Shown piece by piece: positions 9,901 to 52,960 of a stretch of 64,000 nucleotides of DNA (position 1 is the first letter of the stretch; every line of letters starts with the position of its first letter). The stretch is from positions 15,982,316-16,046,315 of the forward strand of contig NC_091098.1 of the NCBI RefSeq assembly GCF_024713975.1. The letters run 5' to 3'. The stretch is from Paralichthys olivaceus. Taxonomy: Eukaryota > Chordata > Actinopteri > Pleuronectiformes > Paralichthyidae. The notes under the pieces are model-generated. The model had not been told where the DNA came from and made no database searches. It worked only from the letters and a program-made list of their open reading frames with translations. The position numbers and the translations under genes are program-made.

Positions 9901-12457
9901 AGCAAGAACAGACACCAGAACCTTTGATTGAGTCATAAATATTTCAATGTTGTAGACACAAGAAAAGAAAATAGCCATTTGCAGCTTTTGATCACTATGT
10001 AGATTAGTTGGTGTTTCTCTGATGATGCCCCTCTGAGGGAGGTGAAAGGTCACAACAACAACAACCTGTAACTAGTGCAGGAGTCGTTTTATTCATAGAA
10101 CACATTATGGCCACTCATCTGATTCAACCCATGCACTTGAGAAAGCCATTTGCTCGCACACTCCCACACACACTGAGACGTCTCCTCGTGTATCTGTGTA
10201 ACCTCTCCCTGTATCTCTCTGAAGGGGATCATCTGTAGGAGTAACTCATTAGCACCGCAGTGTAACTTGGAAAAGAGTCATTAGCAAAAGTATATACGTT
10301 CTTCTCTGGAGGGTGTATTGGTTCTGGCACAAAACGAAAAGTCTCACGTATTCTTCCAGAGTTGAACGGCCTCCACAGACCTGCTGTAACCTGATCTCCA
10401 GGCTCGCTGTGTATATTCCCAGTGCGTCATTCTTCAATTATGCTTTGACAGCACCTGAATTACTGTGGGCTGGATGCCCAGATGACTGAGGCAATGTGTA
10501 TCGATCCATCCCTTTTCTTCTTCCCTCTCCTTGGCTTGGAAGGCCCCTCTGTTCCCTTTGCTGGCCGGCTATTTTTAAACGTGCAAGTCATTCCTCAAAT
10601 ATTTAGTTTGATTCTTTTATGCCTTCTGGCTGGCATCAATTCTATTATCTTTGGAGCCATTAATCAGAATGTGCATGTGATTTGCACTCCTGAAAGCTCA
10701 AGTTCTTAATTACGTACAGTTCCTCTATTGGTTCTTCATTCTCTCTGCCCTCTAATTCTCAGCCTTGGTTACCTTGACATTCATTTTCTTAAAACACAGA
10801 TGTCGACATTTATCCTATAACTGACCTTTCCATCTGCTGTGCTTTTCCAAGTGGCTAGAGGCCCGTTAACCTTCCTCTCTATGAGTTGTGGTGGGACACG
10901 TTGGACTACACCTGGCACACCGACTCCATTATGCAGACGCAGCAGCACATTTTCTCAGAGGCAAAGACACACTGGCGACTACTCACAGCGTCAGCCATGA
11001 AAAATCAGGATATAGCTGCGGCTCCTGTCATTCATTGCACATAAGTAGCACAGATGATACTTTAATGTGTAACCCAGGAACCTCAGAGGAGGAAAAGGCA
11101 GGCATTTGTCATTAATACAGTGTTTGAACGGATTTGCAAACTGTTAAACTGTCATTGGCACAGAAAGGCCTTAAGACAAATTATTAATGATTCTGATGAA
11201 TACAGTTAATGGAGTGTGAATGCAACAAAGTTGTTTTGAATCACTAAAATATTTCTCTCACACACGTCCGCAGTGTACAGCTGCATCTTTTTTCCTTCCA
11301 TGATTTGGTGAACCCGTCCAAACCTTAACACAACTGTCGCAGTCGAGTACAACAGCAAGTGTTAAACGTTCAAATGTCTCCAAGTCTGAGGCGATGATTC
11401 AAATCTGTTTTTTATTTGTAGTTTTGTGATGTTGTTGCATGATGTCGCACAACTGTTTCTGTTCCTGTGTCCAACGCCTTGAGACATTTCCTATCCACCT
11501 GTTTTACAGCACCAGAAGAATTTGAACTGTGCCTATGGGCTATTGCGAAAGTTGATTCTTCGTGAAGTACATCTTTGTAACAGAGACAGAAAAATGGCTG
11601 CAGGGGTGAACAGTCTAATCAAAAAAACTGGCTCACGGCCAAATTCCCACAAATGTTTTTTTTCAAAGATAAAGAATAATTACAGCTATTTTGAATACTT
11701 GAATATTTGTTTGAGTCATTTCTCTATTGTACAAAATAAAGTATTTTTTTCATTAAATGTTTATTTCTGATACTGATAGATGTTTTATAGGCTAATAAAT
11801 ATTCTATTTAATTTCTGATAATTTAGCCAATACACCAAAATCAAAACTACATATAATTGAGAAAGAGAAAAAGAGTTTAATGTAGGGTTCTAATAGTTTT
11901 TTCCCGTTTTAACTATGATTTTTAATCTTATTTCCTCCATATGAGCGTGGATAATTTCATTCAGAAGGCCTTTATGTGCTTCTTTTGTGATTAACCTCAT
12001 TGATCTTTGCTGACGACTGATCTCATGTCCTCTGTTCTCAGCCGGGACGCACATGACCTGTGGGTTCAGTGTTGTTGGCTCGGGACTCGGTGCTGTGGAG
12101 GCTGGAAGCAGCAGCAGCAGCAGCATGTGCGCGGATGTCCATCCCACGGTGCCCGGGGCCCCGAGGACCTGCTTCAGCACCAAGCAGCTGACCGAGCTGG
12201 AGAAGGAGTTCCACTTCAACAAGTACCTGACGCGGGCCAGGCGGGTGGAGGTCGCCGGCGCCCTGCAGCTCAGCGAGACGCAGGTGAAAGTTTGGTTTCA
12301 GAACAGACGCATGAAGCAGAAGAAATTACAGAGAGGCGGCGGACTGCTCTGCGACCCGGGCCCCGCGGCTCTGCGCTCACGCGCCGGCTCTTTGGACACC
12401 TGCCCCGCTGTGGAGCCGCGCACGACCTCGCCAGAGCACCTGCCCCTGATGCCCTGA
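6969..12457 (+). CDS. hoxc1a: Homeobox protein Hox-C1a (Hox paralogue group 1)
   Basis: Anterior Hox transcription factor; group 1 proteins pattern the hindbrain as Pbx partners. Coding exons are 6969-7521 (donor GGTAAGT, phase 1) and 12042-12457 (acceptor TTCTCAG), joining in frame to 322 aa, normal for Hox1. ATG 6969 is chosen because it has A at -3 and the frame upstream offers only a GTG. Exon 1 carries a ten-proline run and, just before the splice, the Pbx-binding hexapeptide TFEWM (171-175) followed by RVKR, a Hox1 hallmark. Exon 2 encodes a short serine run (AGC x6) and the homeodomain (about 222-281), with the Hox1-type stretch [20 protein letters not shown] and the recognition helix with W48, F49, Q50 and N51. 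Compared with Hoxa1/Hoxb1, position 7 is Cys rather than Asn, position 47 Val rather than Ile, and the tail after KQKK is diverged. Assignment to cluster C rests on the cbx5-hnrnpa1-nfe2 synteny. Confidence 0.88.
7522..12041 (+). other. hoxc1a intron 1 (4.5 kb)
   Basis: The single intron separates the hexapeptide exon from the homeobox exon, the universal Hox intron position. At 4520 bp it is far longer than the sub-kilobase introns typical of Hox1 genes. Its left-middle part is occupied by a degenerate tandem array (8587-9872). The rest shows no additional exon that I can support. Confidence 0.8.
8587..9872. repeat. Degenerate tandem (satellite-like) array in the hoxc1a intron
   Basis: Recurrent blocks such as GTTGCATTGAGTAGTGCAC, AAAGGTCACATCAGCACC, CAACAAACACAAAACTAC and CATGCTCAAAATTCAGATTA recur in the same order. 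The AAACACAAAACT core is found at about 8597, 8723, 8915, 9043, 9357, 9467 and 9723. The mean period is roughly 140-150 bp, with spacings of 110-190 bp or twice that. Units are clearly diverged, so the array is old. Many units contain an AGGTCA half-site. Confidence 0.85.
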
Positions 12458-18378: not shown

Positions 18379-18450
18379 TGACCCGGTGGGCCCTCAGGGG
18401 TCAAGTGATACAAGGTCATTGGCAGGTCATCTCTGCTCACTGGCTGACCT
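18379..18450. promoter_or_regulatory. Nuclear-receptor half-site cluster with a DR5 retinoic acid response element
   Basis: The core is AGGTCA-TTGGC-AGGTCA at 18413-18429, a perfect DR5 element, the preferred site of RAR/RXR heterodimers. Around it in 72 bp are TGACCC (18379-18384), GGGTCA (18398-18403) and TGACCT (18445-18450), making five half-sites. A bipartite Pbx/Hox consensus TGATTAAT follows at 18578-18585. The position, about 6 kb beyond the hoxc1a stop, parallels the 3' RAREs known for Hoxa1 and Hoxb1. Activity is inferred from sequence and position. Confidence 0.6.
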
Positions 18451-18975
18451 CTAAAAGGACTTCTTGAAGGAACCAATCAGGTCTTGCGTCTTCCCTGCCT
18501 AAGGCGGATCCCCCCCTCCCTCCCCAGCTCATCAGCAGCCTGTGTCACATGACCAGGGTGAGGCGTCAGAGGGAGGATGATTAATGATGCTTTTAGTACC
18601 TGTTTAGAATGAAGCTGTCCACACTGCACTGTAATTACCCACTCCCAGGCGGCAGCTGCCCAACATAATTGCTTTTTGTTTGTTGACCTGGTTTATTGAG
18701 GAGAACGATGGCTTTGGCTGGGTAAGATGGTGCTGTACACTACACAGAGGTGAGGACGTATGTACGTTTAAATGTGGGTGACGCTTTGGGTTTCAAATCA
18801 GCCTAATCTTCAAAATGATGGCTGAGAAGACGCGTGTCTGTTTTAGCAGATAGTAGCTACACGTAAGGTTCCTCAGATCACATATTGCGTGTCCACATGC
18901 TAAAACTAAATCAAAGTAAATATGTGGCTGTGGTATGTAGCCACACAGTGTCAGTCAGGAAACATTAAGATGTAT

Positions 18976-18979
18976 CCCC

Positions 18980-19053
<74 letters not shown>
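18976..19053. repeat. (C)21(AC)n compound simple repeat
   Basis: A run of 21 cytosines continues directly into about 28 AC dinucleotides. The minus-strand G-run could form quadruplex structure. Confidence 0.95.
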
Positions 19054-19054
<1 letters not shown>

Positions 19055-20708
19055 CTATAAGGTCAGAGAAAGCCACAGACCTCTTAAAGTTAATGCACGC
19101 CACTGAAATATAGCATAGTATTTAACTGCACAGTTAAGGAGGGCTCTGCTCTGTCATGGATAATTTATGTCAACATCTCCACAGCCACATGTACTGTGTA
19201 GCTCTGAAAATTCAAAACTAAGTTCAGAAGGTCACTGGAGGAAATCCCCCCCTCCCTCTCCTTCTTTGGCTACACGCCTGAGGAAAATATGAACATTTCA
19301 GTACCTGCAGCGCTGTGCCACGAGGACAGTGACAATGAAACCCAGATAAACAGCCCCTCGTTTGACCTATGGAGAGCATAAATTTACCACCCATAAATCC
19401 TTGAGTGTTTCAGCTCCGTTTGGCGCATTTGCCGTGTGCCTCTCTACCCAGACAGAGAGAGGCAAGTGTCGGGTATCAGTGCTACTGTATGAGCAGCTTT
19501 CATCCTGCTCCTGGTTCTCACATAACTCAGTCCTGCAGCCTTTATCACCGGCTCATAAATAACTAGGCTATCGCCTGATAATGTCCGCTTAATGCTTAGT
19601 CAATAAAGCCCACAGTAAGAGGGGCCTTTTTTAGCCTCTCTCCTGTACATAAATATAAACAGTGCTGTAGATTGATGTGATGGGCAGGCGCTCTCCACAC
19701 TGGGACAAAAAAGAGGCAGCGTGTGGGCCCAGAAGCTGAAGGTGGGCTGTGGGGCTGCAGGTGTTTAGAGGAGATAGTGGGCTGTAATGAGGGGGCTGCA
19801 AGAGAGGGGCTGAGCGGATAGCCTTGACTGATCACCTGTGAAAGGCACATACACACATTTACACACAAATGATAGCACACAGACTCCAGCGCACAAAGGT
19901 ATGTATGCACGTACACACTCATTCACACACACACTAATGCCATCATTAGTTAACCCATTGGTGCTGATGCCTGGTGAACAAAAGCTCATCCTCTCTATCT
20001 GAAGGGCATTAGAGCATTATGATAAAGAGACTCCCCAATGAACGGCTTCTACATCTTGTTCTTGTTAAGCATCTTTTTTTAATCTATTGACACATTTGCA
20101 ACAACGGCCATACGCTGCTGCCATAGAATTATATCCCGGGATGTGTGTTTCATTGTTTTGCGCACATTGCAGGGACAGTTATCGACCATCGGCACTAGTC
20201 ATCAGACCATCCAATTCCAGCGCGGCGCCAGGGGCAGCTGTAGTCGGTGTGATGGCTGGAATGGGATCATACTGAGCCCTGGGGAGACAGAGGAGACTGA
20301 CAGGGATGTTGCCGGGCTGAACGAGGGGGCTGATTGTGATCCATGAGTCAGTCGGGGCAGCAGCACCTGGGCTTGGAGCAGCAGCTGGGAGAGATGGGCA
20401 GGGTGTCACTGAGTGGGTTCAAAATGAGAGGGATGATCCAATCAGCTCTTATTGACATACTTGGTGGGGTGCAGTCGGTGGTTTGGTTGTTATATGAGTG
20501 TTTACTCTCCACACACGTTTTGTCAGACGAGGCTCAGCCCCGAGATTAGATAATTCAACAATGAGGGAAGAAAACCCTGCTAATTCTTTTCTTTTTTTTC
20601 TGATTGTGTAATCCACTGATTTGACAGATTTGTTTTGGGATCAACAGGGGAACTCTTTTTTCTTTTCTTTGACTTCATTATCACTAAATAAACATAATGG
20701 AACTAGTG

Positions 20709-20730
20709 AAAGTGACATTTATGTCACTTT
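20709..20730. repeat. Short perfect inverted repeat
   Basis: AAAGTGACAT and ATGTCACTTT form perfect 10-bp arms around a 2-base centre. Confidence 0.8.
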
Positions 20731-20934
20731 ATTGTGGCTACGTTTGCCAAGACCACATTGACTGATGATCACTACGACTCTGAGGAACTCAAAGATGTCA
20801 TGCAAGGAATGTGTCAGCTACAAAGAAGTCTTGAAGAAAATGAAATAGAATTAATTAAAAGACACTTTCCTGAAACTTTAAACTTTCACTCTTAACTCAC
20901 TTAAACATTGTCATGTTATGTTTCTTGAGGGTTA

Positions 20935-21035
20935 AGTTTAGAGGACGTCCCACCTTGTGAAGCCCTCTGAGACAAATTGTGATTTGTGAAAATGGGCTGT
21001 ACAAATACAATTCGATTGATTGATATTTGTAATGC
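20935..21035 (+). mobile_element. Teleost retroposon 3'-end fragment
   Basis: The order GACGTCCCACC..GAAGCCCTCTGAGACAAA, then TTGTGATTTGTGAAAATGGG, CTGTACAAATACAATTCGAT and a TTGATTGA tail resembles a 3' end repeated very widely in teleost genomes. There is no open frame. Identification is by pattern from memory. Confidence 0.5.
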
Positions 21036-22766
21036 AACAAAAAATAAAAATGTTCTCAAGAAGTGTAGGATGATCATTCTTTATGCAAAGATTTGACAGA
21101 TGATTCAGCTCAATATGCATCTTACACATAAAAATAGCGGGAATTCACCAATGAATACATAAACTCTGTACATTTTCTTACAAGTACCAAATGAAAATAT
21201 CAAATATCATATTTTATTTCATTAATTAACATAAGCTGGAATCATCTTGCCATAATATCTCTTTAATTCATCAAAAAACCCTCTCTTTAATAATCAAATC
21301 AAACAACAAAGCCAACAACAAGGATGTGTTACACTCTAGGAATCACTCTCCAGGAAAAATTAATTAATTCATAATTTATGCATAACATGTAAGGCCATGT
21401 AATGCAGATTAATGACTGACCAACCAACCTTGGAGTTGCAGGAAGAGCTGTTTGTTCACTACAGAGATGCTAGTTGCTATTAGCATATAGCGCCCCCTCT
21501 TAATATGCTTGAGCGTTAGCAGCAGTGCAACAGCTATTTTTCACCAGAATGCAAAGAGATGGGATTGTTACAGATGAGTTTGTCTGACTCTGGGTAAGTA
21601 ATACAATAAACTTATTCTATAAAAATGTTGGCTGTACTTACACGCATTATACCCAGCTTGTTTACAAAAGCATCACTGTCATCTGCTGCTCATACTGGAC
21701 TCCATTTATCAATATTTGCCTCAGTGCAAAACACTAAATGTGTTTGTGCAGTGTTGTGCAAGACTGCTTAAGTCTCTTGTTATTTGTGGACTCTACAATT
21801 TGTGCAGCGTCTTGTTAAATTGAAGTCGTGATTTGAGTGATTGAACGAGTGGTGATTTCATTTCGATCTCCCCAAGGACACGTTTGGACACATGCACTCT
21901 GAGAGCCACAGAAACCTTTCAGGTGCTCGAGGCTAGAAAACACACATTCATAATATCTATGCACATCTATTTTGCCTCAAATCTAAAACTGTGGGTTTAA
22001 ATGATTGGGTTTATAAAACACTGCAGAGTAAGCAGCCATTTAATGACTTCCTGCATTTACGATCACCTCAACCTCAGGCCACAGATTTCGTCCCTGGCAG
22101 GTGCTACACCACCAGGGGAGGTGGATCTGAGGCTGAGGAGGGGGCAGGGGCCAGATTTAGGAGGAAGGTGAGCAAGGGGGTTCCCACAAACAAGCAGGGG
22201 CCCGAGCTCCGAACACTGCGGCAAATGAATCTCCCTGGGTAATGGAGACAAAACTATTGCAAAATTAGGAGAGACATTAACTGGGGTATCAATAAATAAA
22301 CCTCTAATTAGGAAAAAAGAAGCGGAGCAGAGCAGGGGCAGCAGCACAGGGGGAGAATATCAATGGCAGGCTCACATCTGTATGCAGGCACAGCTCTCTG
22401 GTGAGGGGGCTGGGCCTCACGGGGGCTTCACCAATGGCATCGGCTCACCCATCCATTCCCAACATGCCCTGGTGGAGAGCGTGCCCATTCTTTGACTGTG
22501 CAACCCAGCAAAGCCCCCTCCTCCATCCCTTCTTCCAAGTGTAGCCCCCGAGTTTCTCCACCTCCACGCCGTTTCTCTTTCTCTTTCTCTTTCTCTTCCC
22601 TTCTCTTCTCTCAAACCAGCTTATCTGCACAGTGCCCTGAGTGTGCCGCTGTGCTCTGTGACTTCACCATGATTGATTGTGGTGTGGGTCCTCCACTCCC
22701 TCGGTGAGAGAGAAAATGGAGGAGGGAAAACAGGAGAGAGGGGAATGGGCAAAGCAGAGAAGCCAA

Positions 22767-22805
22767 GAGAGAGAGAGAGAGTGAGAGAGAGAGAGAGAGA
22801 GAGAG
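22767..22805. repeat. (GA)n microsatellite
   Basis: A nearly pure GA run with one interruption. It follows a CTTTCT-rich pyrimidine tract at about 22573-22611. Confidence 0.9.
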
Positions 22806-23316
22806 CCTATGATGGGCAAAATGAAATAGAGGGAGTAATTGTGTCTGTATACACACGTGCATGTGTCTCCATCTGTTGGTATGCATACAACAGAGTATGC
22901 TCATGTTGGTAAGAATGATGATCAACTACAGTGAGTGCATGCTGTGAGTCTGCATGCAGGTATGTATCCAGTTCTAATGTGTCAGGATTAGCTGGACGTG
23001 TGGCCAGCAGGTGGATGTGGAGGTGCAACCTAGGTGCTGGTGGAAGCTGAGGATGGAGGGGTGCATGGCGCTGACCGCTCCCTGTCTCTCCCCCTCTGTT
23101 CCCTGGAGGGTAATAAAGACTGATGACACTGATGCTGTGCCATCCGGCTCCACAGTCTCCACTGCACAACCATTTGCGCCATCATTTATCCCGCTCTCCC
23201 CCCTCCCCGCTCTAATTCTGCTTTAATAACCGCCAGCTCCATTCATCAGTGTATTGACGGGCATGACAGGCGGTGCGGCACACACTAACTCCCTGCCCTT
23301 TACTCGCTCACAGCTG

Positions 23317-23333
23317 GGGTCAGCGAGAGGTCA
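23317..23333 (+). promoter_or_regulatory. Second DR5 retinoic acid response element
   Basis: GGGTCA-GCGAG-AGGTCA matches the RGKTCA-N5-RGKTCA consensus without mismatch. A MEIS/PREP hexamer TGACAG lies 50 bp upstream (23264-23269). The surrounding 23.2-23.5 kb is free of simple repeats. It is 10.9 kb past the hoxc1a stop. RAR/RXR binding is inferred. Confidence 0.5.
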
Positions 23334-26085
23334 CGCAGTCAATAATCACAACACACCTCACTGTCACCTTGGAGCGACTGCATGTCCTGCATATCTATCC
23401 TCACGCATGCCCAAACTCCTCAGTGACTTCACTGCTTGGAAAGGAAGCGTCGATGTTGCTCCTCCGGTGATCCCAATATGTGAATGTGGACTCAGAGGAC
23501 TCGGGTCCATTAAAGCGAGTTGGATTATTCCAGTGCTGCAATGTCAAAAAAAGACCACACGACCCCCAGTGTATTCATTCTTTCAACTCAATAACAGCAA
23601 GTCTGTCATCATAGTTACACTTTGCTCTCACCGCTTGTGTGTTGAAGGAGAAAGTATTGAGGTAGGGGGGGTTACAGTCATTTGTTACAGGTGCAGCCTC
23701 TCTCTCTATCCTTGGGCATTCACCTCTTCATATGCAAAACATGTCCTGCTGTCCTCTGACTCCAGCACAGTTTGCTGCCGTGACACGTTTTTTCTTCATT
23801 TCAGCTTGACAGTGACATTTATGTTCATTTGCTCTGTGCAATTGAGAGGCATCTGGAGAGGCTGTTTCCCCTTTTTTTTCCTACTCCCTCACCTCTTTCT
23901 TTTTTCCTCTCTCTCTCTCCTGACAAAAATATTAATGCAGATTTGCATGCCACACTGAGTAAGCCCTTGATGAACAGTTGGATTTTGGGGAACACACAGA
24001 GGAAAAAACACCTCTGCAATTATACATGGCAGGAAGACTGAGGAGTAAAATGGAAGTCCACTGTTTTTAGATAGATTAGAGCTTGCGTGGTCCCCAGGAC
24101 AAAACCGATCTCGGTGACACTGGGAACCGGCACCGGTCCATGAATCTTGCAATGCTGCTGAGTGTGGTATTGCTGGGAGTTGTGGTTGCTGTGGGGAACT
24201 GAACATGCTGCACACTGTGCTGGGCCGAGTGACACCCACCCTTCCTCCACGGTCACATGATTGATCCCCTCTGGTACAATCTACAGTCCCTTTCCTGACC
24301 CCTTCTGCTTACAAGTACACACACGCAAACACACAGAGGCACGAAGGAGAGGCCACACACATAAAAAAGATGAAAAGGAAATGTGCTAAAACCTTTCATA
24401 TTACTTGTAAAATACTCGTTTTACCTTCCAATGTGTACACACACTCCCCCACCCCTATATCAGCCTTGTGTCACCTATCCTGGCCAGGCAGCAGCCAGGG
24501 GTGTGGGTGCTGAGGGCTCTAATCCGTGGTGCAGGTCCCATCGGCAAGGATCATTGAACTAATTAATAACATGGCACAGAGAGGGATGGCAGTCATTAAG
24601 GAGCCACGGCTGTGTGTGCGGAGATGCTGTGGGCTTCTGCATGGGTGTTTGCAATATGTGAGTGTGTGTGTGTGGGGGGGGGACACTGCAGACACAGCGA
24701 TTCACTTTGCCATGCAACCCTTTGATTCATAATTCACGGAGGCCACGCAAACATGAGAGCACACCATTATACAGCCAGGCACACATGCATATATGCAAAC
24801 ACACACATAGGGCAAATGAATACGCATGACACACACATGCAGATTTCACATGATTAACTGTGTGTGACACTTTAAAGTACCCTCAGCTGAAATTATTTAA
24901 GGGTCAGCCAGAGTGCAGCTTAGGTATCGGTGAAGACAACTCTGTGTGTTACTCCAGCTAGGTTGAGCTGTAACTCAGACACAAGCAGAGCGGCACAGTG
25001 CTCCATGGGGCTCTGTATAAAACACTCTACTGCACCAGCAGAGCCCATCATTTCTAGTCTGCAACCATATGTTAGGAGGTGCCGTATACATCGCCAATAT
25101 TTACTATAGGCTAGGGGACCAGAAGGCTAAGAGCACTTAGTTGTGTGAGGCAACCCAATAGCTCAGCCTGGGCTAATGAAAGGAAACAACAGGAGCAATT
25201 AGCAGTGTAAACAAACAGCTCGCGGAGGCCCCAGTCTCCAGCCTCCCCCCTGACAGCAAAGGGACTGGCAGCCTGGAGTAGGAGGTAATTGGGGGAGCTA
25301 GGAGCCGAGACAAAATCAATGGCAACGCATGCACAGACACAGCACGATTACTCACCACCCTGCATTGCCGCCCCCAGGACTCAAACACGACAAAGGTGTA
25401 GTCGCAGATTTGACCCTGCCGAGCTAACTCTCACCTCAGGAAATTCTAGTTGACTGTACCTTAGTGGCTCTCAAGTGTGTGCACACTTACACAGCAAGGA
25501 AACATTAGTTTTAACACACGTACAGAAAGACAGACACACATACACAAGCCCTGAAACTGACAGCTGACACCGCACAGTGTACAGCATCGCACTTTGACCA
25601 CTGGCTAAGCAGGGGCCTAACGACCTTCCTCTCAGCCTAATTGATCTCATCTTGGTACCATTTATGTGTCTGCCCGTACACTAATGTCTCCTGCTCACTC
25701 ACTCATTGGGAAGCATCAGCGTCTACAGTGCGACCATGTGGCTGCAGCCTGCAGACAGCCCGCAGAAGCTACGGCCATGTACGTCTCCTCCTTCTCCCTG
25801 AGTGCAGCCGCGGGGCAGAGGGGCATCACTAATGCAGGAGGCTGGCGAGGACTTCCACTCTACAGGGCAAATTCTGCTGCAGGCATGGGGCTTCTGCTGT
25901 CTGAGTGCTGGCCAAGACAATAATCACCAAGAGAGACTTTCCTGCAGAGTTTTACAAAAGTCTCCCCCTTCATCAATTATGGGATGTTTTTTCAGGCCCA
26001 GGTTTTGTCTGAATCATGGCTTGTTGGCTCATGTCTTGGGCAGCGAGATGATTTCATAAGTAACAAGTTCACTGATAGACGAGTC

Positions 26086-26520
26086 CAGATCCTTTAAATA
26101 CAGTATGTACAACATACACACTCAAATATAAAATATCTCTGATAGAAGTAAATGTTCTGCACTTTAAACTCCAGAAGTGAATGTAAAATGTTCTGAGGTA
26201 GCAAAAGTTCTAATCGTGCAGAATTTACTCATAGTGCTACATGTCAATTTATTTATTTATTGACTTTTCTTTCATGATGGATGAACATGTAAGCAATAGA
26301 CGTTGTAGCTTAAGGGCGATCTAAAATAAAGGGAGATCTAATATTTATGATTTTATTTTGGAGATTATTCTATAATATGGGGTCTATATTTAACAAGATT
26401 ATCATTTGTTTTCATGCAAAGTCAAAATTTTCAGTCACAAGTATGCTGGCCGGTCAAATATATGTAGTGCAATAAAAATTAAGTATCAGTACAATTATAA
26501 TCAAAATAGTATGAAAAGAC
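26086..26520. mobile_element. Degenerate MITE-like DNA transposon copy
   Basis: Motifs such as AGATCCTTTAAATACAGTA, GTAAATGTTCTGCACTTTAA, GGTAGCAAAAGTTCTAATCG and CAAATATATGTAGTGCAATA recall, in order, a non-autonomous element abundant in teleosts whose ends read CAGTGGTGGAAGAAGTACTC. The copy is heavily diverged, and its borders are approximate. Confidence 0.35.
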
Positions 26521-26890
26521 TTTAAATGATTTCAGTTGAAAGAAAAATAATTACTTATAATCAATTTATTTCTTCAAGCAAAAATTCAAAGGATCTTCTT
26601 TTTCTCTGTGGTGAGCATTTCTTTAATCTGGTTTATAAACCAGTAATTGAAAATGAAATATCTTTGTTTTAGACTGTTGGTTTGACAAATCCAGCCATTT
26701 CCAATGTGCCTTTTCTTACCTTTTTCCAATGTTTTATAGACAGAACAATTATTTCCTACACCAAAGAAGCAGAAAGAGAGCAAAGAACTTAAGAAGTGTC
26801 ATATTTTAGTCTCATGCCTTGTTTAATGTCAGCGACAATAGCAATCAGGGTTTCGGCTTCTTCTGCTTTAAGTGTTGTAAAATTACATTA

Positions 26891-27264
26891 CAGTGGTGAG
26901 AGGAAAAAAATTCAATTTACATCATTACTGTACATTATTATTATTATTATTATTAATATTATTATTATTTGTATATTTAGGCTCCAGTAGATTTATTTTC
27001 AGGTAACATTAGACCCCGCCTCCTGCATCACTCACTGGTGATCTAAGATGGATTCAGCAGAGGCCGGATCATAATGAGGTAGTAGATGCATTAGGGAATA
27101 TTATTCACTCAGCAAGTACTTTTAATACTTTCATTATATGTAACTGCAAGTACTTACTTTTACTTATGTAAAAAAGAAAATGTTAACTTTTACTTGAGTA
27201 AATTTTTGTCTATTCATTTGTACTTGAACTAAAGTAAAATGTCTGAGTACTGCCTCCAACACTG
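26891..27264. mobile_element. MITE-like DNA transposon remnant with terminal inverted repeats
   Basis: It begins CAGTGGTGAGAGGAA and ends GAGTACTGCCTCCAACACTG, so the two ends are near-inverted copies of the CAGTGNTGGA-type terminus of a common teleost element. The right half has the characteristic repeated ACTTTTACTTGAGTAA-like text. An (ATT)n run is embedded at about 26935-26970. No flanking 8-bp target duplication could be seen. Confidence 0.5.
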
Positions 27265-29440
27265 TGAGAAAACTATTAGCACAAGGCACTGAATGATTCA
27301 AGACTTTAATTCTAAAGAGGTTTAACATGGACGTGCATTTAATCGATTTAGTGGAAACTTATTCCACCAGTTATGAGTCAAAAAACATCACCTGCTTCAG
27401 CGAGATTTCTGATTTAGTGGTCAAATGGATGGATATTGTTTCTATTAGTCCTCATTATTACTGTAGATTGTGTGAGACCACCTGCTCGGCTCAGTGGGGA
27501 TTATATGGACCATTAATGAGCAGAGTGGAGACAGAGACGGAGACACCTTCTCTCTCACATGCAGAGCAGGCAGCAAGTGGAGAGAGGAGAGCCACCAGGC
27601 TCCATGTAATGTTAATACAGGAGACAGAGCTCTGACCAGGGTGCAGCACAGTCCCATTCACTTAACAGCTTTCTCCATAATATCATCCCCATGCGTCAGG
27701 GAGCCAAGCGTCTGGATGCTGGACGTTGTGCACACACACCCACACTCAGCGCCTGTCCTCCAAATACCAGTGCATTACTGCCCTGGCGCTCATTGACAGG
27801 GCTGCCACTCACCACGAAGATGGATGCTCCTCCTGGGACAATTCCAAATCTCCTTCATTGACTCATTTGTTTTGCTGATCTAACTACCTTTGAGCACAAC
27901 GTTGAGTGTGTGCGCTCAGGACATCAGTGTGTTTGTGTGTGTGTGTGTGTTTCCATGTTGAGCAGTGACCTCAGTTCCCAATTCCTTTGGCACTGGTAAA
28001 ACAGCCCCATGGGGGGGGGGGGTTAACAGCAGCTACAGAATTAGAAAGCATGCAACCAGGTACAAGTGCAAGCGATGCTCTCCCTGCTGCACAAATAAGT
28101 CCTGTTGCTCATTTATGCACGTTTCCCTCCAAGTTTCTTGATTAAAAGCATGTAAATGACTAATTTAAGATTCCAGCTTCCCTGAGCATTATAATAACCC
28201 AAACAAGCCTTTGACATTTGCATTTTCATTTGAGGAGGCTCAAGAATGATCCGCTCACCAGGCTTTATTCCACTCCACTCGTCCAAAACCAATCCTCATC
28301 TCTTATCAGCCACGATAGTGTGTCATGACCATGGACCAGACTCACACACGTCAGTAGACAGGCCTGCATTCATCACACCCTCGCAGCCATGTCGATAGTC
28401 ACCAGGCTGAGCAGGCTCATAATGAATTTGAGGAGTTGCACACCTATAGCAAAGTCATTTACTTTATCAGGCCGATAAAAGGAAGTGATAAGATAGTGGC
28501 TCCACACTGTAAGAGTATCAGCCTCTCGCCGCTATTCATCTCACACCGAGATCTACAAATGGCAAAGCTCATCACTCAAGGCCGCCGCACTGGGCCTTTA
28601 TCTGTGGAATTTGAAAAAGGGCTAATATCTCATAAGAATGTGTGGTTATGAAAACCGTCATTTCCATATCATTATCAACAGGAATATCAGACTTCCAAAG
28701 TAAAAGGCTCCCGTGGCCTCTCTGTGTCTGTTCTGCTTCTGGTTCAGGGACTGCTGGGAGAATGCAGGTGCAAATATGATTTGGGCCTGTTCCTCTTATG
28801 AAGTTGACCCCCTGTAATTGACACAGACACACTGGCAATTTGATTAGCTCTTCCTGCTGCTTGAGGGCACTTGACCATAGCAGCCTCGTCGCCTGTTTCA
28901 TGTACATAGCTCCACCTATTGGTGAAGTTGGGGAACAGCAGGGCGAGCAGAAGAAACAAGCTCCCTGACTCACAGTGTGTTTGGAATTAAACCACTGGGC
29001 CAAATCCAAGAATATTTAACAAGCAAGGAACAACACAGCTAAACTAAGTAATGCTCTGTGATCATCTCTACAGGGGCCAACCTACATATTAGACATGTTT
29101 TCAATGCATGTAGTTTTTGCCATGTGTTGCTTATCAATAAATATCCATATTTCTAATATCTCATGCTCCTCATGCTCAACTAAATATGTGTTTGACAGAA
29201 AGCACGTATGCACAATGATTTGTATGCAGATATGGGTGTGTGTGTGTGTGTGTGTGCGTGTGCCACTGAAAGTAGTTCATCTTTACTACAAAGAGAACTG
29301 ATGAGAAGAGCCTCTTGAAACACTTGAGATAAGCTGGCTTGCTCAAGTGCATTGACATTGTCACCAAACACGAAAGGCGCAGGAATGCAAGTCAAGAGAA
29401 ATGGAAAAAAAAAACACACAACAAACGCACACACACCGAA

Positions 29441-29441
<1 letters not shown>

Positions 29442-29475
<34 letters not shown>

Positions 29476-29492
29476 ACACACACCCACACACG
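29442..29492. repeat. (AC)n microsatellite
   Basis: AC run with scattered CCC interruptions. A shorter TG run lies at about 29235-29258. Confidence 0.9.
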
Positions 29493-30563
29493 CTCTACAA
29501 CAGCAGTTTCATTCACAGCCCTGAACAAGAATGTGCTCAATAGAAAAACAGTGTGTCACATGAAGTGAAAATGACTGTACATCGATTCATCAAGATACAT
29601 CATTAAAGCTGTCAAACATCAAAAGCTCTGCGATCACAGCTCACTCTTGAGAGAGACACCAATAGCCCCATTCATCATATTTGTTTGAGCAATGAAAGGC
29701 AGAGTGAGGCAAGACAAGAAAGAGGGAGGAAGAGACCAAAGAAAGTGCTTAGAGTAAAAGTCAGGCCAAGTAAAGGAAATTCAAGTTTATAAGAAGGAAA
29801 ACAGGAAAACAAATGAAGTGGAATATGTGATACAACCGGAAAAGGCAGCCAAAGCAGACGAGAGAGTTATGGGGAGGGTGAGAATGAATGCAGGTATAGT
29901 GCCAAATGAGAGATAATTAATAGCAAGTGACAACAGAGTTTTTTAACCCTCTTGTTTGTAGTGGGACGCCACCTGGACTGAGGCCTAACCCCTGAGGCTC
30001 TGTGAGCTGAGCATGCTGGTTCACAGCTTCACACACCTGCACGTACCAAGAATGTGCACCAAACGCCATCGCTCCTTCCATTCTGACAATGATTTTTTTA
30101 TTATCTGCATCGCTCGCCCTCACCTTTATTTGACCTCACGAGACTTCCAGCACATCACTCACTTCAGTCCATATTTATTATCATTTATCATTTTATTAAC
30201 ATGGGAAACATTTTGGGGGGAGCGGAAGGGGAGGGGGGACTGTGTTGCTAATTTCTACGATGCTTGTAAGAGGACATCTTTAAAGTTTACGCGGCTCATG
30301 ATCAAATGGTTTTTATATATCCCCCGGCTCTTGTATTCTCCAAATTGCTTCAATAAATAACTTGTAAGTCTAATTATGCAGCAATTAATTGCAGCCAACA
30401 TGGGTTGCCCATCAATCTTGTAACTTGAAAAAGTCTTTTCCAGGCTGGCAGTGCAAATAAGAAATTTGATTAGATTTTGCAAGCACGTATGGCATTGTGT
30501 CTCTGCGTGTGTGTGTATGTTTGTGTGTGCTAGTTTGTCATTATGTGTGCATACGAGTATGAC

Positions 30564-30580
30564 TGTGTGTGTGTGTGTGT

Positions 30581-30634
<54 letters not shown>
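30564..30634. repeat. (TG)n microsatellite
   Basis: About 35 TG dinucleotides with a single TC interruption. Confidence 0.95.
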
Positions 30635-30636
<2 letters not shown>

Positions 30637-30736
30637 ATGGAGGTTACAGCCAGATCACAGAAGAGAGAGCTCCATCCCAGCAGCTCTCTCGGTCGGTCGC
30701 TCTCTCTCTGCAGTCTGCTCTCTGCCGTCTCGTCCA

Positions 30737-30750
30737 GTTGCTATGGCAGC
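30737..30750. promoter_or_regulatory. RFX X-box-like palindrome
   Basis: GTTGCTATGGCAGC matches GTTGCCATGGCAAC at 12 of 14 positions. It lies 112 bp before the DR5 element at 30862. Confidence 0.25.
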
Positions 30751-30861
30751 AGTGGTGAAGGCTGTATCCATGGCCAAAGGAGGAAGCTGGCATCCCCCAA
30801 TAACAGACCTCCCGTCCCCCCTCCTCTCCTCTCTCCCCGTTCCCCCCCCCCGACAGGCTCC

Positions 30862-30878
30862 TGACCCGCTGGTGAACC
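30862..30878 (-). promoter_or_regulatory. Third DR5 retinoic acid response element
   Basis: On the minus strand the sequence reads GGTTCA-CCAGC-GGGTCA, a perfect RGKTCA-N5-RGKTCA. Its first eight bases, GGTTCACC, are identical to the start of the classic RAR-beta/Hoxa1 type element. AGGTCA at 30893-30898 forms an imperfect DR1 with the preceding GGGTCG. It is 18.4 kb past the hoxc1a stop. Function is inferred. Confidence 0.5.
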
Positions 30879-31424: not shown

Positions 31425-31437
31425 TGACCTTTGACCT
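31425..31437 (-). promoter_or_regulatory. Perfect DR1 nuclear-receptor element
   Basis: TGACCT-T-TGACCT is, on the minus strand, AGGTCA-A-AGGTCA, the ideal DR1 bound by RXR, PPAR, HNF4 or COUP-TF dimers. Another AGGTCA is at 31451-31456. It is 547 bp from the DR5 at 30862. Confidence 0.45.
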
Positions 31438-32263
31438 CTCTGCCTCCGAGAGGTCAGACGGTGTTGGGTTAGCTCCAAACACAACTTCCTCACCTTGAAG
31501 ACTTGTGTGCGCGCTCTCACCTCGGGGCCTGTGAAAATAAAAATTCATCAGCGTGTGTCAGTCGCAATTTCCCAAAGCAAAGATTTGCTGACATCCAGCC
31601 ATGAAATGTAGCTTTAATTTTAATTGAGTTTAACTGAATGTGAAAGAGGAAGAATCATTTTCTAATATCATCCCATCACACGCAAATAGTTTGGTAAAAT
31701 CTAACAAGAGTTTATCGGGAAAGGATCCACTGGGGAGTGTTGACCAAGGAAGAATCCCCCCTGCCCCTCTACCCCCCCTACAGACACACACCAACAACAC
31801 TTGCAATTTTACAACCTTTGATGATACAATACATTGACATCAACCCTGCTGCCAGTGTGAGCCAGGAAATGACCCACTCCTCCAAGTTTCTGTAGAGCAC
31901 AGCGGCTCCTTTCAATACTGTGAGGATAACATTACCCCCTAGTGGTTAATATCTGCAACTGCCGGCTGATACTCATGTAGCCCATGAGTGAATGTCAACA
32001 GCCAACCATACAATCAATCTCCATCCATAACACTCTGTGGTCTGTACAGTAGCTATGGTGGACAGGCTCTAACTCTCTGCCTCTTCCATCTGATCCATGC
32101 ACTATTCCAGCTCTATCACATTTAGATACAATTTAAATCATCAACAATAAATTATGAATTATAATGGTATGCATTGCAGGAGCTTATAAATTGAAAGACT
32201 CAAGAAGAAAGCCACATAGTAGAGCAGAGGGGTCAGAGCAGAAGGTATGTGTTTGGTTTCCTC

Positions 32264-32265
32264 AT

Positions 32266-32297
<32 letters not shown>

Positions 32298-32309
32298 ACA
32301 CACACACAC
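32264..32309. repeat. (AC)n microsatellite
   Basis: About 23 AC units with one TAC interruption. Confidence 0.95.
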
Positions 32310-33204
32310 TCTGGGTGCTATGCAGACATTGTACGCAGTCGCTCTCTCTGCTGCATTCTTCTTCTTCTTCCTCGTGTTCTCCAGATGTCATGTCCTCTTC
32401 GTCACCCCTTTCCTTGCCCCGCTTCGCTCGGTCCCCCCCTCCACCCGCCCGGAGACTTGTCACAGCCCCTAACCGCATCAGGAGCACTGCTAGATTGGAT
32501 ATACATGATCTGTCCATCCATCAATGGGGTGAGGGAGGGCGAGAGACAGAGAGAGAAATGGCAGTCTATCTGTAAGGAGTGAGATAGAGACACGAGAAAA
32601 ATTGGAATGGAGTGTCGTTTGTGAGCATAAACCTTACACGCCGAAGAAAAATTATCAAAAGACAGACATGAACATATTAAAAATGCCTTTTCACGCAATA
32701 TGTGTTTGTACACTTCCAAAGCTGATGATCAAGTTCATAGAGGAATAAAAAGCTCTCTGTGCAGTGCTAATGATGTTTGGATGCATGTTCCTCATCACTG
32801 TCATTGGTCAATAATGTGATTGGTGATAATGGGCTCAGATGAAGATGTGGACTGGCTGGCTGACCTGGTAGATCTGTACAGACACCGTCTTCCCTGCAAA
32901 GTGAGAGACAGTTTTTTCCGGCTTCATCCTCGTGTCTCTGCCTCTCGTCATTTGTCTCTTCTCTGAAGCTGCTGATGCTGAATCACCTCGCCACTTTCCC
33001 CCCTTCCTTTCTGTGGACTGAATGAGCTGGAACACGTGTGTTATGGCCCCTGTGAAAATATGTTACAACGTGGGCACACACTGTCAAAACCTCTGGGAGC
33101 TGAGCTAACACTCGGCTCTATATGCACTTTATCTACAGGTGCAGCCACGGCAAGATTATCCTCCTGTTGCAGACCATGCTGGTTCAGCAAAGTCAGATTG
33201 TGAG

Positions 33205-33640
33205 ATCATTCAATCAATCAGTCAAAATGTATAAAGTACCTTTCAAACAAATCAAATGCAATTCAGAGCGCTTCACGGGTGACTGACAAAACATAGGATG
33301 TTAGAAATGAGTGAGGAAATGGTTAAACTTATTCAGCTTTACAGACTATTATACAAGATATATAATAAACACCAACATTTTAGCAAAACAAAACAAAATG
33401 ATATAAATAATAATCGTGAATAAATAACTATAAATAATAAAACATAAAATTATAAAATGCCACATTTTTTTAATTGACATTAGAAAATATTAACATTTTA
33501 AGCTCCTCTTTCTCAAGGTGTTTGTTTATTGTTGGAACTGTTGAGTTTATCTATGATATTGTAAAGTCTCAACCTCATATGCAAAGTACCTTGACATGAT
33601 ATATATTGTGATTTACAAATAAAACACAATTCAAATGAAG
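33205..33640. mobile_element. Degenerate teleost retroposon pieces
   Basis: The text around 33213-33280 (AATCAATCAGTCAAAATGTA, then AAAGTACCTTTCAAACAAAT, then GCGCTTCACGG) and around 33575-33625 (AAGTACCTTGACATGATATA, then TTGTGATTTACAAATAAAAC) resembles the two ends of a repeat very common in teleost DNA. The middle is AT-rich and unrecognised. Both ends are old and diverged. Confidence 0.4.
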
Positions 33641-34224
33641 GGAATGAGAGTCTTAGAGTTTGCCTTTTGGCTCCAGCTGTAATTTGTTTGCTATTTATGA
33701 GGTTGTATTAAAAGTTAATTTTAAGAGTTTTTTAATGTTAAATATTACACACGAGTATTTACTATTAGGGTAATATCATGAGAACAATTATTCTGTAAAG
33801 CCCCTGTGTCATCTTTCAAATGTTTCTCTGTGACTGTAAATGCAAAACACCGCATTCGACTGCAATAAAAGCAGAATTGCTCCATTTCTACTTGTGCTGT
33901 TGTTTCTCGTAGCTTCAGACACTGAGCTGTCATACATAAGTTTGATGTTGACTATACTGTATAAGCAGGGTTCAATCTGAGGTTGCCCCGACACTCCATC
34001 GTTTTATCATGTGATATTCATCTATGTCTGTGCCATTATCTTTCCCACACATTTCCAGGTGATGCGTTATCACCAGCACATCTGCACATCTCCTCCTTCT
34101 CCCCTCTGTCTCCATCTTGTTCTCCTTACTCTCTCTCTCATTCTCATACTCTCCTCTCCCACTGTTTTTCCTCCCACCTTTACCTCTGCCTTCTCCTATC
34201 TTTCCTTCCATTTTCACACTGACG

Positions 34225-34301
34225 CCCCCCCCCCCCCCCCCCCCCCACACACGCCTCTTCCTCCATCTCTCTCCCTTTCTCTCTGTCCCCTCTCCTCTCG
34301 C

Positions 34302-34333
<32 letters not shown>
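34225..34333. repeat. (C)22 tract and adjacent (CT)n pyrimidine-rich repeat
   Basis: Twenty-two consecutive cytosines (34225-34246) are followed, after a short AC patch, by a CT-rich tract ending in a (CT)n run at about 34312-34333. Strand asymmetry is extreme. Confidence 0.95.
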
Positions 34334-34884
34334 CGCTGTGCTCTGATGAATTGCCTTCCCCTCCCGGTGAACTCGACCGATAATCCTGGGGAAGCAGTAA
34401 AAGACCATCGATCAGCCCTGCAGACAGGCCCACAAGCCACAGCACAGGAACAACACGCTAACAACAAGCCTCTGCACTTGGCTTTCACTGCATATATGTA
34501 TGTGTATGTATGCATGAGCATGCATGTATGTAAGCATATATGTAAAACTGTTCATACTGTATGTATATAAACCTAATGCATGTATGTAGAGAGAGGAGCT
34601 GGGATGCATGACTGTCCCAGGCATAATGGTCTTGTATTAGTATGTTGGTTAGTATGTTCCTGCACATGTTCGCCACATACAATAATGAGTTTAAGAGTCC
34701 TCTAAAACAATCTATCACTGTGTTTAGCTTCACTCATGTTTATGTGTCACCATGATGCAAGGACACACTGAAGAGTTCCCCCTGTGCTCATCCTGCTTCC
34801 TCACGTGATCCGTCCCCTGCTGTGTGTCATCCACATGGAATGTGTGCATATATGTGCTAACATGCGTGTCCATGTACATATACA

Positions 34885-34908
34885 GTGTGTGTGTGTGTGT
34901 GTGTGTAT
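34885..34908. repeat. (TG)n microsatellite
   Basis: Twelve TG units, continuing into interrupted TG-rich sequence. Confidence 0.9.
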
Positions 34909-37798
34909 GTGTGTTTGTGTGTGGCTCTGTGAGTGTTTGTGCCTATTAAGTGCGTTTGCTTGTCAGCATGTGTGCATAGTATTTGTATATGTATGCAGCA
35001 CACACACAGGCCATAAATCATCCGGCTTCTCCAAGCCCATCTTGAAGGAGAAGGCGAGAGAATGCACATGATCTTGTGCATAGCTTGATGGCTATGAAAT
35101 TGACCTATTGATTGATTGAAACAATTAATTTGGCGCCAAGCTTTTATGGCAGAGAAGCAGGGCGAATCATTATTTTGCAACAAGCAAGTGGAGACAGCTG
35201 GATAATTTTATAATTCCCTCTGAAAGGACTACCTACTGCTCCAGGCTTAGGATAATGATATGCTACCAAATATTGGTTGAAGTTGTATGACGTGATTTGA
35301 TAGCTCGAACTGTGGAAAGTCATGTATGAAGTCCATTCGTCTTCATTCTTCATTTTGCACACAAAAATAAGCCAACTTGAGCGATTCAAGCACAAGACAT
35401 CCAATGGTCATTATTCTATCCCCCTAAATATGACAAATGGACGACTGCTTCTATTGAATCTCATTCTTTACATGCCATATTACAAAGCACCGCTGTTCGC
35501 CAGTGTGAAGGAGCTTGACCATAAAAAGCCAGTTGCTTGGAAAATAAATCTCCACTTTGACAACCGGTGAACTGCTTTTCATTGAGGAGGCTCACCATTC
35601 ATAGTTTATATTTCCCTCTTTTTTCAGTTTTGGAACTGTTTGTGAGTTGTCCTTCACTGCCTTTCTCTTTGCTGCCTTTGTTCCTAATGTACTGGCAAGG
35701 CTGACTTCATTAAGCCCTGTATGCAGCAAACACATTCATGCCCTATTTTCATTTTTCCTATTTCATTTTGCAGTGATACACCACAGCACTGCCACCAAAG
35801 CGGAAAATAAAGCCCCCATCAGGCTTGAAGCCATGTGCTCTTTGAGAGAGAGGCGACCCCTTGTGGTGAAAGCAGAGAACCGCGCCGCCAGCTGAAATCC
35901 CACGTGCACAAATGGAGGACCAGCTGACACTCAGAACTGCACAATGCAGAGAACCATCCTGCAATTATTAGCAACTGAGAGAATAAGCCTAATGCATAAC
36001 AAGAGCAAGGCACACACACCACCCTGCAGACCTCACAAGACACCTGCAACAGGTATTTGAGTTATTTCTCGAGTGTAAGAGGGTGTAGCAGGCCCTGATT
36101 CTTCTAATACCTGCAGAATGACTTAATGTGGGGGTGTCTGTAAAGGTGCGTGTGTCCCTGTGTGCTTTCCTGAGACTGAAACGCCACCACGGACATTGAC
36201 AGATCGCAGGGGAATGTTCAATTGCAGGTTGTCGCGTCCTGCTGTCATTGGGATCATCTGTCACAGGGCAAGGCTAGCTGGGAGGCAGGAGCAGGCAGGA
36301 GTGAGGGGCGTCACTCCTTCCAGAGATGATGATCGCACCAGGGCTCCTGCCAAGCCGGCTGCTGGCCCTGTCTTGCTCCTGTGGTCCCTTGGAATTCTTC
36401 TCTTTCACAGTCTGTTCCAGAGCAATAATATTACAGCTTGATAAAATGCACTGTAGACAGAAGCATGAAGCAGAGAGGGATTTTCCCACTTGGAGAAACA
36501 GCAGCTCTGTGTCTCTATCGCTCCATCTTTTGGCCACGGTACTTTGTTGACTGCCCCAAATCTCTGTTGAGATTAATTTGGCAGCTCCAGGGATTATTTC
36601 TGGTTGGATAATGAGATGTTTCTTGCAACAAATGCCACACACAGATGTTCTGTCTCGGAGATGAGTCAATACAGAGCCCTGCAGAAACATAACTGATCTG
36701 ACCTGCTTTCTCTCTCTGACTCTCTCCCTGTCTCTGCTATTTTGCCTTACACACCATGCACTCCAATAACCCTTCTTATGTCTTTCCTACCTAATCATTT
36801 ACTTCCTTCCTTTCTCCTTTGTTTCTTCTTCCTGCAGAGAATCTGCTGTTGTCATAACTGCACAAGGCTGCACTTTCGCGTGTGCACCCTCTACAGTCAA
36901 GGCCGGGAAGTGCCTTTGTTGTTACTTGAGAGAGGATACAAACAGGAAGGCCAATTACAGCCCAGCAGTCATCTATCTGTCAACTATTTGACAGGAACAT
37001 AGCACAGCCAAATATATGACCCCCCCATAAATCACAGCATCTCACTCTAACTAGCCTGTCTTGTGTGAGTAATTAGTAGAAACATGCAGAAGCATTTCAG
37101 AATCCCCAAATACCATTAGATCATTTCACTTTTGATTTTCAGTCACTTTTCTCCAAAACCCACAAGCTCAAATAGCCAAATGTTCCTGAAAATTAGATGC
37201 ATAAAACTGATTTAGGGGACACTCAAGAAATCGATCATGCAACAGAATCATTTAATGTTTAAGGAAGGGCCCAGTGATTTGTGAGATGTTGAGACAGAGT
37301 TCATATTCCACATTTGAAGGTTTAAAAAGAGGACCTTGTATTTTCATAGTGAGCCTTAACCGCCTTGTACCCCTTGCAGCAGTCCAACCCCGTGAGCTGC
37401 ATTGCTATTGCAGATGCTTTATGACGGGCAATTTAGCTTCAGCTGCTATCTGAGCCATCTCAGGAATGGACGCGCTTAGAATCAAGTGCAATAAAGCAGA
37501 GAAGGAAGTGGAGAGAAGGGGGGGACGAGGGAAAATAAAGAGAGACAACAAGCTCGTCTGGACAGCCCCCTTTGGACAAAAGGTTTGGGGGTAGGGTCTC
37601 CTGTGGACACACACACACACACAAACACAAACATTGGTTTCCCAGGCACTCGGCTAGACAAGGAAGAGGCAAACCTGTTTGTTTTCACGGGAGCTTCCAA
37701 ACAAGGCCAAGCGTGTGTGAGTGAATGTATCAACACATGTTGGCTTTTTCCCTGGGTGTAATGTGCAGTATAAGTTTTTCTGTCTATACATTTATCTC

Positions 37799-37799
<1 letters not shown>

Positions 37800-37862
<63 letters not shown>
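37800..37862. repeat. (TG)n microsatellite
   Basis: About 31 uninterrupted TG units. Confidence 0.95.
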
Positions 37863-37864
<2 letters not shown>

Positions 37865-42663: not shown

Positions 42664-42955
42664 TTAGTTAGTTAGTGAGTTAGTTATAGTTAGTTCATAC
42701 ACACAGATTTCCACCACTATCCTTATTAAGATTTAATGTAACTAACTAACTAACCAACTATAGTCGACTCCAATTTCACTGCATGTTGCATTGTTTAGTT
42801 AGGTAGTAGCAATGCAACACAAATGCAGTGGAATTGAAGTCGAATAGTTTAGTTCAGTGCAACTAGCTACCTAAATCATTAGTCCCCTCCAGTTTCCCTG
42901 CACTTATGTTGCCTTGGTTTGAGAATTGGTTAGTTAGTTAGTTAGTTAGTTAGTA
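42664..42955. repeat. Inverted-repeat complex with (GTTA)n arms
   Basis: (GTTA)n-type sequence at about 42664-42692 is answered by (TAAC)n at about 42738-42755 and again by (GTTA)n at about 42928-42955. Between them 42756-42849 folds into an imperfect hairpin whose arms begin AACTATAGTCGACTCCAATT and end with its near-complement. A further degenerate arm lies at about 42887-42913. This looks like a foldback or MITE-like element. Confidence 0.7.
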
Positions 42956-43108
42956 AACCCTAACCAATTCATACCTAATCCTGACCTCAACCTAACAACA
43001 ATTCACATCGTATTACTAACTCAAACCAGAACCTTAAAAAATAAGTTTTGTTTATTAGGCCCAGGCTTTGGTCCCCATTAGGCATAGTAGTCCTGCCAAG
43101 GTGTTTGT

Positions 43109-43109
<1 letters not shown>

Positions 43110-43150
<41 letters not shown>
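43110..43150. repeat. (AC)n microsatellite
   Basis: About 20 AC units. Confidence 0.95.
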
Positions 43151-43152
<2 letters not shown>

Positions 43153-43159
43153 ATGGCTC

Positions 43160-49100: not shown

Positions 49101-49190
49101 CTTGTTTCATCCAAAACAATATATCTCATCCCTGCGGTCTAGGTCTCAAGTTCCAGTCACATCATAAAATAAAATCCAACTGCCATTTAC
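43160..49190. other. Intergenic DNA, last part of the gene desert before cbx5
   Basis: No gene is recognised. A one-mismatch DR5 (TGGTCA-GCGCT-GGGTCA) is at 44533-44549. Single-copy-looking stretches at about 44400-44830, 45080-45540 and 46050-46370 have the AT-rich, repeat-free character of conserved noncoding DNA, but conservation cannot be tested here. Short (GGT)n and (G)n runs are at about 46420-46440 and 46506-46519. Confidence 0.45.
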
Positions 49191-49206
49191 TTTAACACTG
49201 AAAATG

Positions 49207-50757: not shown

Positions 50758-52960
<2,203 letters not shown>

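Follow-up and report, generated by a model that had tools for sequence, protein, structure and literature searches.

DR5 repeats 3' of hoxc1a in the HoxCa locus of Paralichthys olivaceus as candidate retinoic acid response elements

Introduction

Direct retinoid input to Hox genes is well mapped for the HoxA and HoxB clusters, and little occupancy by retinoic acid receptors (RARs) has been seen at mouse HoxC (PMC4510006). Here, we describe three perfect direct repeats with a spacing of five bases (DR5s) in a 64-kb stretch of the Paralichthys olivaceus genome (C6:15982316-16046315; 588,085,608 bp in 25 contigs), hereafter the window, which holds the 3' end of the HoxCa cluster with its Hox1 gene, hoxc1a. 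The repeats lie in the gene desert between hoxc1a and cbx5, and we weigh whether they are retinoic acid response elements (RAREs).

Several described systems come close to this arrangement. Functional RAREs lie 3' of mouse Hoxa1 and Hoxb1, and the window likewise carries motifs of the RAR type 3' of a Hox1 gene; unlike the mouse elements, these belong to a HoxC cluster and are three perfect DR5 motifs spread over 12.5 kb, the nearest of them 6 kb away (PMC4510006). In zebrafish, the 3' RARE of hoxb1a is a DR2 located 1 kb from the gene and conserved with mouse (PMC2148072). It also stands 3' of a fish Hox1 gene, differing from the sites described here in its DR2 type and its 1-kb distance, and no counterpart of it was found in the hoxb1a locus (3.2 kb) of P. 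olivaceus. Beyond the 3' end of HoxB, RAR sites in intron 4 of skap1 are bound and conserved in zebrafish and mouse, one of them being an enhancer proven by a reporter (PMC8608873). The HoxCa flank likewise has several sites beyond the 3' end of the cluster; unlike those of skap1, they are known as motifs alone and lie in a desert, not in an intron. Putative, position-dependent RAREs are carried by anterior vertebrate Hox genes (Mainguy 2003, as cited in PMC6767176), and the elements presented below are likewise putative RAREs at anterior Hox genes. Judged by titles and the openings of abstracts, the open-access papers listed in our searches yielded no description of DR5s 3' of hoxc1a.

Results

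Three perfect DR5s lie 3' of hoxc1a

Both strands of the window were scanned for perfect DR5s, defined as RGKTCA-N5-RGKTCA. Exactly three were found (Table 1), all at the coordinates given in the initial annotation, which had taken its count by eye as a minimum; the scan revealed no fourth. Measured from the hoxc1a stop, their distances on the 3' side are 5.96, 10.9 and 18.4 kb, which places all three within kilobases of a Hox1 paralogue. The order of the homeodomains together with the cbx5 exons bears out the proposed assignment of the region to the 3' end of HoxCa on its cbx5 side. At spacings 0 to 10, the remaining perfect direct repeats comprise one each of DR1, DR2, DR9 and DR10. When up to one mismatch was allowed, ten DR5s were obtained, three perfect and seven with one mismatch. 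The site at 44533, previously singled out as a further element, does exist as one of these seven, and was dropped as a fourth element.

Among the three, the site at 18413 is the best candidate RARE and the most likely working element; it falls within a cluster of five half-sites about 6 kb past hoxc1a. This cluster (18379-18450) is the only place in the window where five half-sites span 100 b or less, while uniform placement of half-sites would give 0.004 such clusters within 80 b. The sites at 30862 and 23317 appear to be weaker candidates that might act as back-up (shadow) sites.

Motif and spacing specificity of the DR5 excess

When the letters of the hexamer were permuted, not one of the 719 resulting motifs yielded three or more pairs at DR5 spacing in the window; eight of them had three pairs at one of the spacings 1 to 5. 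Similarly, three DR5s were never obtained in 900 Markov sequences, made up of 300 for each of the orders 1, 3 and 5; of the 300 order-1 sequences, three had three pairs at one of the spacings 1 to 5. Among all spacings from 0 to 100 in the window, only spacing 5 has at least three perfect repeats.

The comparison was extended to a wider locus of 264 kb, with the 60 other spacings from 0 to 60 as controls. Six perfect DR5s were present, against a mean of 0.73 and a maximum of 3 for the controls; allowing up to one mismatch gave 33 DR5s, against a mean of 16.3 and a maximum of 28. All six perfect DR5s lie between hoxc5a and 31 kb of the window. In the segment from -30 to 52 kb (limits set post hoc; negative coordinates are to the left of the window), the counts were 6 versus 0.38 for perfect repeats and 17 versus 5.75 with up to one mismatch. 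Neither the posterior Hox segment (-100 to -30 kb) nor the region beyond cbx5 (52 to 164 kb) contained a perfect DR5; the averages for the other spacings are 0.05 and 0.30, respectively. With one mismatch, numbers were not clearly raised in either (4 versus 2.9 in the posterior segment, 12 versus 7.6 beyond cbx5). These results indicate that the local DR5 excess depends on both motif and spacing and is limited to the anterior half of HoxCa together with the adjoining 3' flank.

The three additional DR5s inside the cluster can be set beside those of HoxB, where the ENE-, B4U- and DE-RAREs surround Hoxb4 and Hoxb5, at distances from Hoxb4 of about 3 kb on the downstream side and about 4 and 8 kb on the upstream side (PMC5414248). 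The HoxCa sites (-7049; -24709 and -25742) resemble the Hoxb4/Hoxb5 RAREs in order, not in distance, and no paralogous sequence was found in the genome for the -7049 site.

DR5s at other Hox loci of the same genome

Thirty homeodomain loci of about 3.2 kb each served as a control set. They contained four perfect DR5s: one 3' of hoxb1b, the two beside hoxc5a listed in Table 1, and one at a homeodomain gene that belongs to none of the clusters. At no other spacing between 0 and 10 was there more than one perfect repeat. The hoxb1b DR5 (C21:1871649-1871665) is located 1.06 kb 3' of the homeodomain. Exact matches to the pattern GGTTCACSSAGAGTTCA, built from it, occur at three genomic positions, two of which are in HoxBb; with up to one mismatch, there are 40 matches versus 13 for the reversed pattern. 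The two HoxBb matches are the source of the pattern at C21:1871649 and a near-identical second DR5 at C21:1865398-1865414. Kinship among candidate 3' RAREs of Hox1 genes was not detected, in that the similarity of the DR5 flanks and of the hoxb1b element to other places in the genome was no longer than a single site.

The retinoid reading and its alternatives

We read the desert DR5s as candidate RAR/RXR response elements similar in kind to those already described 3' of Hox genes, and hold with moderate confidence that at least the 18413 site may work in this way; for all three working as RAREs, our confidence is lower. This is the likeliest meaning of the sites, given an excess that is spacing-specific, limited to the anterior part of the locus and carried by no detectable repeat. 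The sites are probably a further case of a known type of element, not a new type.

Perfect DR5s number 3443 genome-wide, which corresponds to 5.85 per Mb or 0.375 per 64 kb. The initial expectation of 0.12 per 64 kb is correct for equal base frequencies but made the odds about three times too favourable for this genome. At the genome rate, the Poisson probability of three or more DR5s is 0.0066 in 64 kb, 0.0017 in 39.5 kb and, with limits chosen post hoc, 6e-5 in 12.5 kb.

It is possible, if somewhat unlikely, that only the 18413 site is a working RARE and that the other two perfect DR5s are nearby by chance. This overlaps the retinoid reading, for which one working site suffices, and fits with 18413 being the sole DR5 in a cluster of five half-sites and with the background-like appearance of most genomic DR5s. 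However, the genome rate predicts 0.23 DR5s for the desert, which by density alone makes it unlikely that chance supplied two more.

That none of the three is functional, and that they form one of the few triplets to be expected in 588 Mb, noticed here beside Hox genes, we consider fairly unlikely. About nine DR5 triplets within 12.5 kb are expected by chance genome-wide. A sample consisting of the first 100 of the 3443 sites, from the first 19.2 Mb of C1, contains a single triplet that fits within 12.5 kb; three DR5s occur in 2 of 300 64-kb tiles, and 0.87% of sliding 64-kb windows hold three; in all, three or more DR5s per 64 kb is roughly a 0.7-0.9% event at genome density. The motif scan proposed in the initial annotation was thus carried out for the window, as a count for the whole genome and for this sample of tiles. 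DR6, the sole whole-genome spacing control, occurs 3120 times, so that the excess of DR5 is only about 10% (both counts include repeats). DR6 being almost as frequent as DR5, most genomic DR5s therefore look like background, and a random perfect DR5 in this genome is more likely to be background than not. Chance does not account well, however, for the spacing-specific excess over 264 kb, which includes three more DR5s inside the cluster and outside the window, nor for zebrafish hoxc1a being a target of retinoic acid (PMC8608873). In zebrafish endoderm, hoxc1a was raised 6.86- and 5.0-fold by retinoic acid at two stages and lowered by the inverse agonist BMS493, and it is among 13 retinoic acid-regulated genes with an RAR chromatin immunoprecipitation site, assigned by nearest gene (PMC8608873).

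Besides these genomic densities, several observations weigh against the retinoid reading. In the desert, DR5s with up to two mismatches number 38 versus 31.2, with 10 of 60 spacings as high, and with up to one mismatch 8 versus 2.4, a count equalled by spacing 52. The hoxb1a and hoxa1a loci (3.2 kb each) contain neither a DR5 nor a DR2 with up to one mismatch. No similar enhancer sequence was found in the genome for the flanks of the three DR5s, the -7049 flank or the hoxb1b element, which gave self matches only. In early differentiation, the mouse HoxC cluster was described as weakly responsive to retinoic acid, and RAR occupancy there was very low (PMC4510006). In amphioxus, predicted RAREs near Hox6 and Hox14 were mostly unconserved and were discarded as false (PMC3534614).

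Two alternatives concern the identity of the sites. Nuclear receptors have the half-site in common, and the sites could serve COUP-TF/NR2F, HNF4 or RXR with other partners instead of RAR/RXR. A perfect DR1 (31425) and a perfect DR2 (19221) stand among the DR5s, each the sole perfect one of its kind in 264 kb, and a DR1 could serve RXR, HNF4 or COUP-type receptors. We regard this alternative as improbable, given that the excess is at spacing 5, which in zebrafish was the commonest spacing beneath RAR peaks, at 39% of them (PMC8608873). A dispersed repeat family, against which the initial annotation had cautioned, is highly improbable, as the fragments spanning 18413, 23317 and 30862 (561, 571 and 841 b, respectively) are single copy, each with itself as its one genome match (E <=0.001, in a comparison that skips very common words and that an old decayed repeat could escape), the three flanks show no likeness to each other beyond chance (best E 0.09), and the window has no Rfam or tRNA match.

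Gene neighbourhood

The 100 kb to the left of the window contain ten more homeodomains in one common orientation, running from a posterior gene to Hox3, with Hox1 next, in the window. This order fits a HoxCa cluster followed by hoxc1a, the names being given from order and similarity. Homeodomain groups on C5, C13, C20, C21, C10 and C14 fit HoxAa, HoxAb, HoxBa, HoxBb, HoxDa and HoxDb, named in the same putative way. Percomorph fishes usually have seven Hox clusters, HoxCb being the missing one, and Hoxc1 is not known from mouse HoxC.

The second exon of hoxc1a has a Homeodomain match with an E value of 9.1e-23, and the next best homeodomains of the genome are 78-83% identical to it and lie in three other places. 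The gene is open-reading and looks intact. Its intron measures about 4.5 kb and contains, at 8634-9752, adjoining diverged copies of one sequence that are 64-86% alike; the Hox3 gene (hoxc3a by order) lies 15 kb upstream of the hoxc1a homeodomain. The desert between hoxc1a and cbx5 extends over about 38 kb. Ten of its longer open reading frames were scanned and showed no Pfam family, and hidden genes in the desert were set aside on these grounds. To the right of cbx5 follow an hnrnpa1-like C-terminus, named by inspection and without a Pfam match, and then an nfe2-like bZIP gene.

Other signals in the desert

For the other motifs scanned in the desert, we used consensus patterns that we take to represent PBX-HOX and CTCF sites, and the 18578 site in Table 1 owes its name to the same presumed PBX-HOX consensus. 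The PBX-HOX-type pattern TGATNNATKR occurs 23 times in the desert (12458-51967) versus 7.0 (standard deviation 2.8) in 40 order-2 sequences, an excess to be taken as an upper bound since some matches are TGATTGATTG words of the repeat-tail kind. The reversed pattern occurs 5 times versus 7.9 expected. On the cbx5-nfe2 side, 12 kb gave 7 matches versus 2.2, so the excess extends outside the desert. The Meis-like motif TGACAGNT showed no excess (18 versus 15.3 expected).

CTCF-like sites number 6 in the window versus 1.46 expected, and none of 100 shuffles reached 6. In the 264-kb locus they are absent from -69.8 to 31.9 kb, a gap of about 100 kb. The sites between the DR5s and cbx5 (Table 1) could possibly mark a domain boundary toward cbx5; a boundary reading based on orientation is weakened by seven CTCF-like sites farther to the right, all on the minus strand.

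A 102-base match, about 70% alike (E 4.4e-5), links 20926-21022 of the window with the 3' flank of hoxa1a, near a GATTGATTG tail; it is probably a repeat tail.

Table 1. Positions of the main features in the window and of further perfect DR5s to its left, in window coordinates
Feature	Position	Strand	Remarks
Perfect DR5	-25742 and -24709		Either side of hoxc5a homeodomain
Perfect DR5	-7049		Between hoxc4a and hoxc3a
hoxc1a	6969..12457	+	Exon 1 about 6969-7519, exon 2 about 12042-12457; open exons; limits and name putative
Five perfect RGKTCA half-sites in 72 b	18379..18450		Starts 18379 (-), 18398 (+), 18413 (+), 18424 (+), 18445 (-)
Perfect DR5 no. 1, AGGTCATTGGCAGGTCA	18413..18429	+	Motif scan; 5.96 kb beyond hoxc1a stop
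PBX-HOX-type site, TGATTAATGA	18578..18587	+	About 150 b past DR5 no. 1
Perfect DR2	19221..19234	+	Motif scan
Perfect DR5 no. 2, GGGTCAGCGAGAGGTCA	23317..23333	+	Motif scan; nearest other perfect half-site more than about 960 b away
Perfect DR5 no. 3, GGTTCACCAGCGGGTCA	30862..30878	-	Motif scan; extra half-site at 30893 (+)
Perfect DR1	31425..31437	-	Motif scan; extra half-site at 31451 (+); about 550 b past the 30862 group
Five CTCF-like sites	31933, 40070, 40933, 48503, 49812 (31933..49824)	-, -, -, -, +	Between DR5s and cbx5
One-mismatch DR5	44533..44549	+	One of 7 in the window; weak
cbx5 coding exons (chromo to chromoshadow end)	50758..52885	-	Coding end near 50758

Discussion

The most likely target of the candidate DR5 elements would be hoxc1a. 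RAREs recruit both corepressors and coactivators (PMC4510006). At this locus, RAR/RXR heterodimers would occupy the direct repeats and, without ligand, hold nearby promoters low via corepressors; with retinoic acid, coactivators would be recruited and transcription of hoxc1a raised, perhaps together with that of hoxc3a to hoxc5a. In the initial annotation, the three sites and the one-mismatch DR5 were taken to suggest an array of retinoid enhancers, with the 3' end of HoxCa under its control. Retinoid elements are indeed their likeliest meaning, but an array of three enhancers is unproven, and control of the 3' end by such an array goes further than the evidence in a genome where most DR5s look like background.

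A broader proposal, quite unlikely in our judgement, would make the desert a retinoid-and-Hox control region for anterior HoxCa, with redundant RAR/RXR sites, many PBX-HOX sites and a CTCF boundary against cbx5. Such a region would be the HoxC counterpart of the HoxA and HoxB 3' regions. Fishes with hoxc1a would have kept it, and tetrapods, in which the response of HoxC to retinoic acid is only weak, would have lost it.

Should the sites fail as RAREs, they would provide an example of how perfect DR5 matches can mislead even beside a Hox cluster. This fish retains hoxc1a, and in zebrafish hoxc1a is driven by retinoic acid (PMC8608873); the sites therefore offer a testable account of how hoxc1a is switched. 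They may also bear on what tetrapods might have lost together with hoxc1a.

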